From Vicinamibacterales bacterium (lineage in GTDB: Bacteria; Acidobacteriota; Vicinamibacteria; Vicinamibacterales; Fen-181), in NCBI GenBank assembly GCA_029974175.1, contig JARKSS010000341.1:1-34377 (forward strand): 34,377 nt of DNA, given 5' to 3'. Positions 21,790 through 27,358 of the stretch are shown here, piece after piece. The first letter of the stretch is position 1. Every line of letters begins with the position of its first letter. A program made the translations under genes and the position numbers. The notes under the pieces were generated by a model. The model was not told the DNA's origin. It did no database searches and saw nothing but the letters and a program-made list of their open reading frames with translations.

Positions 21790-22020
21790 GCCGGGCAACG
21801 CCTCGGGGGGCTCGACACGACCTGCCGCCCTGGGGCCGGGGCCGGCCGGATGATCCCCACTCCGTTGCCGCGAGATGTCGCGGGAAAGCCGCACGCCAGC
21901 GTGAGTCCCGCCTGATTCGAGTGGTCGCGTTCAGCACGGCACAACCGTGGCAACGCTCATGCAGTCCGGGTCAGCGGCACAACACGCCGTCGTAGGCGGC
22001 GATCAAGTGGGAGCCGGCTG

Positions 22021-23097
22021 TTGGCGGATGCGAACTACTGGGGCGCTTTCCTCTCGGCGCTGCTGCCGACGCTGCTCATCGCGTGGCTGGCAGCCTGGCT
22101 CGCCAGGCGCCTGGCTCGGAACGCCACGCTCGCCGTTGTTGGTGACAGGCTCCGGGCTGACAGCCCGGTGATCCGCGGACCGCTGCGGCTGGTTGCCGCT
22201 GCGGCGTTCGTGCTGGTCGTGGCGTTGCTCCTCTTCCCCGCGATGGAGCTGGCCGGCTTTCGCCCGACCGTCGGGCGCAAGGCGCGCGAGATGGCGGTCT
22301 GGCTCTTCGGCGGCGGGTTGCGGGTGGGCATGATCGCCCTGATTGCGTACAGTCTGCGCCGCGCCACCCTTCTGTACGTGCAGCGCTTCGAAGACGAGCT
22401 CACCGCGGGCGCCACCATCGGCGAACTCGAACGGAACAGGCGCGCCCGCACGCTCGGATCGATGGTCAACAAGGCCATCACCGGCCTCATCGTCGGGGTC
22501 GCCGGGGTCCTGATCCTGGACGAAGTCGGCGTCGACGTCGCCCCGATCCTGACCGGGGCGGGGATCGCCGGCATCGCCATCGGCTTCGGGGCGCAGACGC
22601 TCGTCCGCGACGTCCTCAGCGGGTTCTTTCTCATCCTGGAAGACCAGGTGCGCGTGGGCGACGTCGCCGAGATCAACGGGACGACCGGCCTCGTCGAACA
22701 ACTCAACGTGCGGACGATCGTGCTGCGCGACGACAGGGGCACCGTCCACGTGGTCCCCAACGGCGCCATCGTCACGCTGGCCAATCACAGCAAGGACTTC
22801 TCCCGTTACGTCATCGACGTGGATCTCCCCTACGCAGAGGATCCGGATCGCGTGGCCGAGATCGCGCGCGATGTCGATCGGGAAATGCGCAGCGATCCGA
22901 AGTTCAAGATCCTCATCCTCGAACCTATCGAGATCGTGGGCGTTGTCGCGTACAGCCAGTGGTCGATGCAGTGGAGGATTCGAATGAAGACGGTCGCCCA
23001 GCGGCAGTGGGTGGTGGGGCGGGAGTTCCGCAAGCGCCTCAGGAAGGCGTTGAACCTCCACGGGATCGAGGTGCCGTATCCCGTGTTCCGCCCCTGA
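22021..23097 (+). CDS. Mechanosensitive ion channel, MscS family
   Basis: Multiple TMs then ILTGAGIAGIAIGFGAQTLVRDVLSGFFLILEDQVRVGDVAEINGTTGLVEQLNVRTIVLRDDRGTVHVVPNGAI. TTG start. Confidence 0.9.
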   Translation: MADANYWGAFLSALLPTLLIAWLAAWLARRLARNATLAVVGDRLRADSPVIRGPLRLVAAAAFVLVVALLLFPAMELAGFRPTVGRKAREMAVWLFGGGLRVGMIALIAYSLRRATLLYVQRFEDELTAGATIGELERNRRARTLGSMVNKAITGLIVGVAGVLILDEVGVDVAPILTGAGIAGIAIGFGAQTLVRDVLSGFFLILEDQVRVGDVAEINGTTGLVEQLNVRTIVLRDDRGTVHVVPNGAIVTLANHSKDFSRYVIDVDLPYAEDPDRVAEIARDVDREMRSDPKFKILILEPIEIVGVVAYSQWSMQWRIRMKTVAQRQWVVGREFRKRLRKALNLHGIEVPYPVFRP

Positions 23098-23208
23098 CGC
23101 GCGGCGCGCCGCCGCAAGGCTGCGTGGCTTCCGGCTTGCACCAGGCGCCCGCAGCCCGTCGTTAACCCCGGTGCCCGCATCGGGCACGCACACTGGCCGG
23201 AGGCTCCG

Positions 23209-24093
23209 ATGCCCAGAGAGCTGGCGGAAAAACTGAAGGACTCGATCGTATCGACCGTACGGGGGACCGGAGAGATCGTCAACGCCGTCACCGAGACCGT
23301 GAGCGACACCCTCGTGACGGCGCTGCAAGGGACCGGATCGGTCGGCAAGGCGCTGACTGGCGCCGTCGCCGACGTGGCCAGCGGCGCGATCGAAGGAACG
23401 TCGCAGGTCGGCGGCGACCTCGGCAAGGCCGCCAAGGGCGCCGTCATCGGCGTTCTGCAGGGGACCAAGCGGGTCGGCGCCGAGGCCGTTGACACGATCG
23501 GCTCTACGGTGCAGACGCTGGTGAAGACGACCGTGGAGGTGGGCGGCGACGCCGGTTCTGCCGCCCGGCAAGCGATGGAAGGCACCATCGAGGGCGCTCG
23601 CAGCATCAAGCTGGCGGGGGTCGAGGCGGTCACGGCGGCGGCCGCGGGCGCCGTCCAGGGCGTCGGACGCGTGGGCGTCTCGGCCACGACGACGACGGCC
23701 GACGTGGCCCGGGAACTGATCAGCGGCGCGGCGAACGTGGGCGGCGACCTGGGCTCGGCGGCCAAGGGCACGATGCTCGGCGTCCTTCGCGGAACGAAGG
23801 AATTGACGGCACAGGCGACCGACACGGTCGGCGCCACGGCAGGCAGTCTCGTCAGGGCCACGGCCGGGGTCGGCGGCGATATCGCCGCGACTGCCAGGGC
23901 TGCGGTCGACGGTACCATCCAGGGTGCAAGGGAAGTCGGTGTCGATGCGGCTGGTGCAGCGTCGGCCGCCGCGACCGGCGCGCTCGCGGCCGCCGGCGAC
24001 ATCAGCACCGCCGCCGTCGAGCAGGTGGAACGGGCCGCGACCGGTGTGATCTCCGGCGTGAAAGTGGTGGTCACCTCGCCGTTCCGAGGGTAG
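23209..24093 (+). CDS. 11/22-residue tandem repeat amphipathic protein (LEA/synuclein-like architecture), function unknown
   Basis: VGGD blocks start at residues 67, 111, 177 and 221 (all 1 mod 11). The whole 294-aa sequence divides into gapless 11-mers. RBS-like CCGGAGG before the ATG. Confidence 0.85.
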   Translation: MPRELAEKLKDSIVSTVRGTGEIVNAVTETVSDTLVTALQGTGSVGKALTGAVADVASGAIEGTSQVGGDLGKAAKGAVIGVLQGTKRVGAEAVDTIGSTVQTLVKTTVEVGGDAGSAARQAMEGTIEGARSIKLAGVEAVTAAAAGAVQGVGRVGVSATTTTADVARELISGAANVGGDLGSAAKGTMLGVLRGTKELTAQATDTVGATAGSLVRATAGVGGDIAATARAAVDGTIQGAREVGVDAAGAASAAATGALAAAGDISTAAVEQVERAATGVISGVKVVVTSPFRG

Positions 24094-24111: not shown

Positions 24112-24555
24112 CTACGCGGGCGAGGGCGGCCGCGTGCGGGTGCCGGAGGCGGGCTTCCTGCGGCGACGCGGCTTCATGCGCCGGCGGCGGACGCTGCTCC
24201 GGACGGCCCCCTCCGTCGCCTGCAGGGCGGCGTCGATCGCGGCGCCCAGCGAGCGGTGTCGCCGCTCGACCACAACGCTTGGGAGCCCGCTGAGGACCAC
24301 CTTCACGCGGCACACCTGGTCGACCCCGCCGCGCGGCCCGTTCGCATCGGTCACGCGGACGCTCACGCGCTCGATCGACGTCGCAAACTTCCCCAACTTC
24401 GCGCCCAGCTTGAGACGGATGAGCTTTCGGTCGTCCTTGTCGAGTTCCACTCCGATCACACGCACGTGCGCGGGTGTCCGCGACGCGTCCGTGCGGCCGC
24501 TCGCTCGCTTCACACGTTTCGGAATGAACCGGGGCATTGCGGGCTGAGTCGCCAT
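24112..24555 (-). CDS. HPF/RaiA-family ribosome hibernation factor-like protein with Arg/Lys-rich tail
   Basis: VRVIGVELDKDDRKLIRLKLGAKLGKFATSIERVSVRVTDANGPRGGVDQVCRVKVVLSGLPSVVVERRHRSLGAAIDAALQ. RBS AAGGAG overlaps the end of the preceding gene. Confidence 0.8.
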   Translation of the reverse strand: MATQPAMPRFIPKRVKRASGRTDASRTPAHVRVIGVELDKDDRKLIRLKLGAKLGKFATSIERVSVRVTDANGPRGGVDQVCRVKVVLSGLPSVVVERRHRSLGAAIDAALQATEGAVRSSVRRRRMKPRRRRKPASGTRTRPPSPA

Positions 24556-24559
24556 CCTG

Positions 24560-24796
24560 CTACTCCTTCGAGTCGCGGCCCGCCTGTCGCCGCCGGCCGG
24601 CTGACGACGTGTGGGCCCTGGAACGGTGGGCATGCGAGGCGCGCAGCACCCGCGCCTTCGCGCTGGGGCTTGCCGCCTTTCGTGCCCTTCGCTTTCCGGC
24701 TGCCTGCGGGCCCTTCCCGCCCGCTGCGCCAGTGCTGCCGGATGCGGTGCGCCGTTTCGCCGCCTTCCTCTGGACCGGTCGCTTGTCATTCTTCAT
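24560..24796 (-). CDS. Small Lys/Arg/Ala-rich basic protein, unknown function
   Basis: MKNDKRPVQRKAAKRRTASGSTGAAGGKGPQAAGKRRARKAAS...GRDSKE. Its last codons and stop (GACTCGAAGGAGTAG) contain the HPF Shine-Dalgarno. Confidence 0.5.
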   Translation of the reverse strand: MKNDKRPVQRKAAKRRTASGSTGAAGGKGPQAAGKRRARKAASPSAKARVLRASHAHRSRAHTSSAGRRRQAGRDSKE

Positions 24797-26263: not shown

Positions 26264-26440
26264 GGCTTCCGCGGTGAACGGCACGGGGCAGCTCCATGCG
26301 GAAGGGCGCAACCAACGGTCGTGATACCGCGTGATACCGGCGTCGCGGATGCGACCTGCACGGACCAGGCCAGAGGGGCTCGCCTGCCGCGAGGCGATCG
26401 GCACGCGGCTGGCATCTCGGGTTCACGGGAAAGGCCCGGC

Positions 26441-27358
26441 TTGCAGCCGCCTACGCTACGGTCACGAACCACGCCGAACTCGTTCGCCGGCCTGCTGCGG
26501 GCAGCCTGGCAGGAGTACGAGCGCGACCACGCGCGGTACTTCGCCAGCGCGATGGTCTACCATGCGCTGGTCTCCCTCCTGCCGCTGCTGCTGCTCGTCC
26601 TGGCGGCCCTCGGGTTGTTCCTGCGCTTCTCGACCTTGGCAGCGGGCGTCGAAGAGCAGGTCCTCCAAGCCGTCGAAAGCAGCGTCGGAGGGTACCTCCG
26701 GACGACGATCGAGCGGCTCTTCGCCCAGTTGCAGCACGAGTCGGTCGTTGCTACCCTCGTCAGCCTGGGCGGCCTGATGCTCACCGCCTCGGCGCTGTTC
26801 CGCCACCTGCGCCTGAGCTTTCGCGCGATCTGGAGGCAGGCACCGCCACTGGTGGCGGGACCCATCCGTGTCGTCGTGCGCGCAACGGTCCTCGAGTACG
26901 CGGTCGCCTACCTGATGGTCCTGGCGGGAGGCCTGTTGCTGGTCGCGACTCTCGTCCTGCTCTCCGTGACGCAGTGGCTGGGCGACCTGCTGATCCGGGT
27001 GCCGCTCCTCAGCCGCACGCCGGCCTGGATGCTCGCCCTTCCGGGCTCCGTCATCGTGGTCGGGATCACGTTCCTGCTGCTCTTCAAGTTCCTCCCGCCG
27101 GTCAGGCTCCGGTGGCGCCACGTCTGGCTTCCGGCCGCGTTGTGTACCGCCGCCTGGATTGCGGGGGCCGAGCTGATGGTGTTCGTCGGCGCCGTCTTCG
27201 GGCAGAGCCCCACCGCCTCGGGAGCCTTCGGGGGGTTACTCGCCGCGATCCTGTGGATCAACGCGGTGAGCCAGCTGCTCTTCCTCGGCGCCGAGATGTG
27301 CAAGGTCATCGCCTGGCGGGACGAAGCCTGGAACTGGCCGCTGAAGAACGCCGACTGA
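26441..27358 (+). CDS. YihY/UPF0761 (BrkB-like) family membrane protein; start uncertain
   Basis: FASAMVYHALVSLLPLLLLVLAALGLFL, FKFLPPVRLRWRHVWLPAALCTAAWIAG, GAFGGLLAAILWINAVSQLLFLGAEMCKVIA. ORF open from 26321; in-frame TTG at 26441 just before the conserved region. Confidence 0.85.
   Translation: MQPPTLRSRTTPNSFAGLLRAAWQEYERDHARYFASAMVYHALVSLLPLLLLVLAALGLFLRFSTLAAGVEEQVLQAVESSVGGYLRTTIERLFAQLQHESVVATLVSLGGLMLTASALFRHLRLSFRAIWRQAPPLVAGPIRVVVRATVLEYAVAYLMVLAGGLLLVATLVLLSVTQWLGDLLIRVPLLSRTPAWMLALPGSVIVVGITFLLLFKFLPPVRLRWRHVWLPAALCTAAWIAGAELMVFVGAVFGQSPTASGAFGGLLAAILWINAVSQLLFLGAEMCKVIAWRDEAWNWPLKNAD

Follow-up and report, generated by a model that had tools for sequence, protein, structure and literature searches.

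The repeat gene and its neighborhood

The analysed window, a stretch of 34,377 nucleotides from a Vicinamibacterales bacterium, carries a gene for a 22-mer repeat protein at 23209..24093 on the plus strand. It reads from ATG to stop, has full-length orthologues and encodes 294 aa (13 x 22 + 8). A GGAGG ribosome-binding site (23199..23203, plus strand) is located 5-9 nt 5' of the ORF, and similar purine-rich sites precede the genes of relatives. The gene is present in a single copy in the window's genome. Substitutions among relatives are biased to third codon positions. This supports the coding status and makes the repeat a property of a selected protein. Neither a σ70-like promoter nor a terminator was found near the gene. 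Two long antisense ORFs on the minus strand (522 codons, 22003-23571, and 414 codons, 22830-24074) overlap the MscS and repeat genes. They were rejected as genes and are probably high-GC artefacts.

The N-terminal unit (residues 1-22; 23209..23274, plus strand) has the sequence [VL]K[DN]xIVxTIxGTGEI conserved among the relatives compared. No signal peptide or TM segment was seen in this unit, so the protein is probably cytosolic. The C-terminus, residues 279-294 (24043..24090, plus strand; GVISGVKVVVTSPFRG), is also conserved in relatives. This GVKVVVxxPF tail lies outside the repeat pattern and belongs to the most conserved parts of the protein; its last residues have low confidence in the structural model.

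The gene of an MscS-type mechanosensitive channel (22021..23097, plus strand; matches in Pfam, PF00924, and NCBIfam) lies upstream of the repeat gene, with about 110 nt between the two. Further downstream, a BrkB/YihY membrane protein is encoded at 26321..27358 on the plus strand (profile match to PF03631). Of eight distinct contexts across the class, five have BrkB within a few genes of the repeat gene and three lack it. The linked genes show varied orientations and divergent BrkB sequences. By comparison, the whole genome of the window yields four matches to BrkB, of which two are fragments. Neighbours of other relatives comprise BON-domain genes, an AI-2E transporter, MarC, CNNM/CorC and Usp, and in L035 the stop codon of the BON gene precedes the repeat-protein start by 2 nt. 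Neighbours differ between lineages. The gene context suggests envelope or osmotic stress.

Two further neighbours deserve mention. Directly downstream of the repeat gene and convergent to it, a gene similar to ribosome hibernation factors (24112-24789, minus strand; S30AE, E 1e-5) might be a stress neighbour. Upstream of a relative, an ORF of about 2300 codons (L009, 966-7865) resembles an Omp85/TamA barrel at its end when judged by eye, which may point to transport of lipid or protein at the outer membrane.

The 22-residue unit

An earlier note on this DNA had described the entire protein as gapless repeats. Thirteen gapless 22-mers are indeed present; the 8 residues left over and the non-repeat C-terminal tail do not belong to them. 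A recount placed the VGGD blocks, as reported there, at residues 67, 111, 177 and 221, each 1 mod 11. These four predicted turns, which model and 22-mer profile suggest to be a helix break and N-cap, span residues 67-70 (23407..23418), 111-114 (23539..23550), 177-180 (23737..23748) and 221-224 (23869..23880) on the plus strand. The proposed confinement of charged residues to 11-mer positions 3, 4, 7, 10 and 11 applies to 50 of 52, and 63 of the 72 V/I/L/M/F residues occupy positions 1, 2, 5, 6 and 9, as the note had stated for hydrophobic residues.

The 11-residue register has a chi-square of 163, compared with 61 for the largest of 500 residue shuffles (z 17), and for the 22-residue register z = 20. 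The Fourier spectrum peaks at 98.25 degrees with a power of 46 (shuffle maximum 11.9). This means that the 98.2-degree period behind the proposed 11/3 amphipathic pattern is very strong, but it is no evidence for a special 3-11 helix. In any helical 22-residue repeat the amphipathic peak falls on a multiple of 360/22 degrees, and the sixth (6 x 360/22, 98.18 degrees) is the one nearest to 100.

A 110-residue duplication had also been noticed and was found again: residues 67-176 (23407..23736, plus strand; five units) and 177-286 (23737..24066, plus strand) are identical at 50 of 110 positions (45%). Identity drops to 18-29% when the blocks are shifted by 22 or 44. In pairwise comparisons, units within the protein are identical at about 1 to 14 of their 22 residues.

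In the 22-mer profile, Gly reaches 73% at position 2 and 40% at position 3, and Asp/Glu 47% at position 4. In the second half, Gly amounts to 70% at position 15 and 62% at position 19. Judged from this profile, the Gly-Gly/Asp group at positions 2-4 resembles an N-capped turn, and the glycines at positions 15 and 19 look like a GxxxG packing stripe. The charges are split by side. Over 16 members, position 10 has 120 K/R and 5 D/E, whereas position 4 has 18 K/R and 80 D/E and position 11 has 32 K/R and 116 D/E. Hence, parallel neighbour helices would face each other basic to acidic. The hydrophobic face is conserved at 0.76, the flanks at 0.72 and the outer face, the least conserved, at 0.56.

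The hydrophobic positions 1, 2, 5, 6 and 9 would fit the core of a hendecad coiled coil, a right-handed association of helices from separate chains. Since predicted helix-breaking turns recur every 22 residues, the helices are too short for a long stalk and the flanks are Gly-rich, we regard such an assembly as highly improbable.

Relatives and growth by whole units

Relatives occur in MAGs of Acidobacteriota and Chloroflexota, where they are rare and scattered. Of the 193 genomes of the class, 10 carry the family, and a few more in Acidobacteriota do so. Family matches were obtained in about 3% of sampled genomes from the phylum of the two Chloroflexi MAGs. Within the Chloroflexi group, the weakest matches come from MFS transporters that end in a comparable repeat tail. 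Two of them (L052, 1-2004; L053, 1-2025) have a C-terminal helix-repeat tail of about 150-200 residues with a family-profile E of ~1e-11, which places such repeats beside a membrane. One acidobacterial genome encodes two short-form paralogues, L028 (G297:C196) next to Usp and L030 (G297:C305) next to a Crp/Fnr-type gene. In comparisons with L025 and L026, the copy L046 from a genome drawn from the Chloroflexi group proved to be 78% identical to the acidobacterial L026, a short form of 200 aa; this reflects either gene transfer or MAG contamination.

Searches in Pfam, NCBIfam, PHROGs and PDB sequences yielded no match above threshold. The expectation that the protein would not match a characterised family was thus confirmed, and by sequence comparison the bacterial repeat family appears absent from all these libraries. 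A family-profile match to the phage tape-measure protein 6v8i (E 0.0014) was rejected as homology and attributed to a shared small-residue helical composition. No relatives were found in phages, plasmids or viral contigs, and a mobile-element origin was rejected for this reason.

The unbroken register predicted for homologues was borne out: an alignment of nine full-length orthologues including the window's own contains 0 gaps in 2,556 cells (residues 8-291). Family members deviate from each other in length by exactly 22, 88 or 110 residues. The N-terminal V-K-D anchor and the C-terminal GVKVV lie 272 residues apart in the long form, whereas this spacing is 184 residues in Chloroflexi and 162 in other Acidobacteriota. 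Each value is 8 mod 22, and 7, 8 or 12 units lie between the terminal motifs. These whole-22 steps identify the 22-mer as the evolutionary unit. The short forms lack five units and are exactly 110 residues shorter than the window's long form. The difference of 110 residues (272 - 162) is as long as the block duplicated within the protein, so the window protein is most readily interpreted as a short form enlarged by a five-unit tandem duplication.

Predicted structure

AlphaFold2 inputs were shallow, with alignments of 12 sequences for the long and 11 for the short form. The long form was modelled with 13 helices, in most units a single one of 15-20 residues (pLDDT 82.9, pTM 0.83). The independent short-form model has the same helix-per-unit layout (pLDDT 76.2, pTM 0.71). 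Both are helix-turn stacks and not the single long helix implied by the earlier note. According to these models, helices of ~18 residues, one per unit, are predicted to stack as an alpha-solenoid. Both models have their closest PDB counterparts among designed helical repeat proteins: 8cwy with TM 0.73 (long form) and 0.70 (short form), and 5cwb/DHR4 with TM 0.65 (short form). PDB searches revealed no solved structure of a relative. AlphaFold2 can yield confident but unreal beta-solenoids on perfect repeats (PMC11795689). Here, the units are imperfect and the prediction is helical, which lowers this worry, although it is still present. The reasoning that insertions of an odd number of units rule out a solenoid of two layers was abandoned, since either layer could be formed by equivalent helices.

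The models, their similarity to designed helical repeats, the BrkB linkage and flanks conserved like a packing interface would all suit a rigid alpha-solenoid scaffold that binds proteins, e.g. BrkB or the tail of a channel, without ever contacting lipid. Scaffolds of this kind usually retain a conserved surface patch, whereas here the outward polar face is conserved least. In addition, the composition is unusually rich in small residues and free of aromatics, as in lipid-surface helices. We therefore consider a pure protein scaffold possible, if on the whole rather doubtful.

Composition and the lipid-surface question

The window protein has a mean moment of 0.29 and contains 44.6% hydrophobic, 0.3% aromatic and 17.7% charged residues. 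The synuclein/perilipin-like weak amphipathicity that had been proposed is reflected in these values. For alpha-synuclein, moment and hydrophobic, aromatic and charged fractions are 0.30/0.47/0.02/0.24, for perilipin 4 0.257/0.35/0.002/0.15 and for ApoA-I 0.39/0.40/0.065/0.35 (PMC5889406, Table 1).

The earlier note had concluded that the protein is disordered in solution and forms one long 11/3 helix on lipid or upon drying, as in synuclein, perilipin or LEA proteins. The 11-residue register and a moment that stays coherent at 0.30 over all 294 residues are consistent with this. The latter value is near those of synuclein (0.30) and perilipin 4 (0.257; PMC5889406), and the positive charges gather on one side of the helical wheel as they do in perilipin 4 (PMC8064757). 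Register and moment are thus present, but the Gly-Gly/Asp group in the 22-mer profile and the discrete helices of the confident helix-turn models break the helix every 22 residues. Furthermore, every length change is an even multiple of 11. The charge-hydropathy value of 0.54 lies well on the folded side of the boundary (0.42), and all 21 sequences examined fall on this side. A LEA-like protein is disfavoured by the low charge of 18%, unlike that of group 3 LEA proteins, and by the absence of an LEA_4 (PF02987) match when the protein was compared with Pfam at E up to 5. LEA_4 was not detected in the window's genome either; control genomes likewise gave none. Although the pattern is true and strong, the disordered reading is the less likely one, and we judge it improbable.

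Resemblance to perilipin 4 in composition and weak, sub-threshold Phasin_2 matches of short forms (E 0.1-0.27) could hint at a coat for carbon-storage granules of PHA or of triacylglycerol and wax ester, similar to phasins or perilipins. PhaC and WS/DGAT were found in 0 of 10 carrier genomes of the class, some of which are incomplete, and no granule genes are nearby. A granule coat has very little chance of being correct; if the protein acts on a surface at all, the cytoplasmic membrane is the likelier one.

A leader peptide upstream of relatives

In five relatives, a short ORF ending in FRNLGRGVF directly before its stop codon terminates 114-132 nt before the repeat gene. It follows a promoter-like site, TTGAC[A/G]-N17/18, and comprises ~15-37 codons. 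A codon-degenerate pattern of this leader detected 16 sites, distributed over 11 of the 193 class genomes (L055-L061, L064-L072; examples are L004 7833-7862 and G158:C92:49445-49474), and the reversed control detected 0. Codons vary synonymously (CGC/AGA/AGG, TGA/TAA), which suggests that the leader is translated, though some sites differ at the Arg codon.

The leader also precedes EctA-EctB for ectoine (TIGR02406 above cut-off), HflK (TIGR01933), RodZ followed by an MscS-type gene, and DUF3014, LysM-SLT and radical SAM genes. One more gene behind the leader seems to be MscS-like, judged by eye only. The genes behind it look like an osmotic and envelope stress set, and FRNLGRGVF may define a candidate leader-peptide stress regulon. 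Rfam contains no known RNA family matching the leader regions, and no match to the peptide was found in the literature searched. A pattern search did not detect the leader in the window's genome, so that it counts for the window gene by orthology only.

Proposed role and implications

We tentatively favour, at somewhat less than an even chance, a cytoplasmic, membrane-associated helical-repeat stress protein that is built of 22-mers, has grown by whole units and is stacked as an alpha-solenoid. Each 22-residue unit of this all-alpha tandem repeat would consist of one ~18-residue amphipathic helix and a Gly-Gly-Asp turn. Lengths in the family change in steps of whole units, and the window's long form would have arisen by the 110-residue five-unit tandem duplication. 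The predicted solenoid may be held together by the V/I/A face, the GxxxG flanks and the basic-to-acidic flank contacts. Under osmotic or envelope stress, the protein might work on the inside of the cytoplasmic membrane. There, an apolipoprotein-like array of helices could probably direct its faces, which are weakly hydrophobic, towards the membrane or towards BrkB and other membrane proteins. Lipid binding is what we infer here.

The family would provide a clean system for asking under which conditions an 11/3 amphipathic repeat packs against itself and under which it rests on a membrane. The context links an unnamed family from mostly uncultured bacteria to osmotic and envelope stress, and it led to a conserved leader peptide absent from the literature searched.

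Comparison with known systems

In exchangeable apolipoproteins (ApoA-I, A-IV and E), 22-mers are made of two 11-mers (PMC7431520). The bacterial family follows the same rule (22 = 2 x 11, whole-unit growth): its 22-residue units consist of two 11-mers, an amphipathic helix lies between breakers and growth occurs by unit duplication. Apolipoprotein homology is not detectable, as PF01442 matched neither the window protein (E up to 5) nor its relatives (E up to 1). Prolines break the apolipoprotein 22-mers, whereas the breaks found here are Gly-Gly-Asp. Charged residues account for 18% as opposed to 35% in ApoA-I, and the window protein is bacterial and probably cytosolic.

With perilipin 4 and alpha-synuclein it shares the weak moment, few or no aromatics, a small V/T/A/G face, one-sided positive charges and gapless repeats. 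It differs from them by a break every 22 residues, a predicted folded state and an occurrence in genomes without PhaC or WS/DGAT. The chemistry is therefore perilipin/synuclein-like and the punctuation apolipoprotein-like. Group 3 LEA proteins also have 11-residue repeats; they are highly charged, in contrast to the 18% charged and 45% hydrophobic residues here. DUF883 proteins (YqjD/ElaB) and phasins are likewise small and helical, with weak profile scores (E 0.1-0.4) below the gathering scores. DUF883 proteins carry a C-terminal TM anchor, which is not visible in the window family.

The predicted fold is so far best matched by designed proteins. The stacked helix-turn-helix architecture resembles that of the de novo helical repeat proteins 8cwy and 5cwb/DHR4. 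Unlike these, the family is natural, has no sequence relation to them, is rich in Gly, Ala and Val, has GxxxG flanks and uses a single-helix unit of 22 residues. More speculatively, and with considerable doubt, it may be a natural counterpart of designed helical repeats: an effector that acts at the membrane in osmotic or envelope stress, built up from single Gly-capped helices of 22 residues in two layers that would themselves be interchangeable and tolerate odd-unit duplications, and controlled in several lineages by the FRNLGRGVF leader in common with ectoine synthesis, HflK and mechanosensitive-channel genes.
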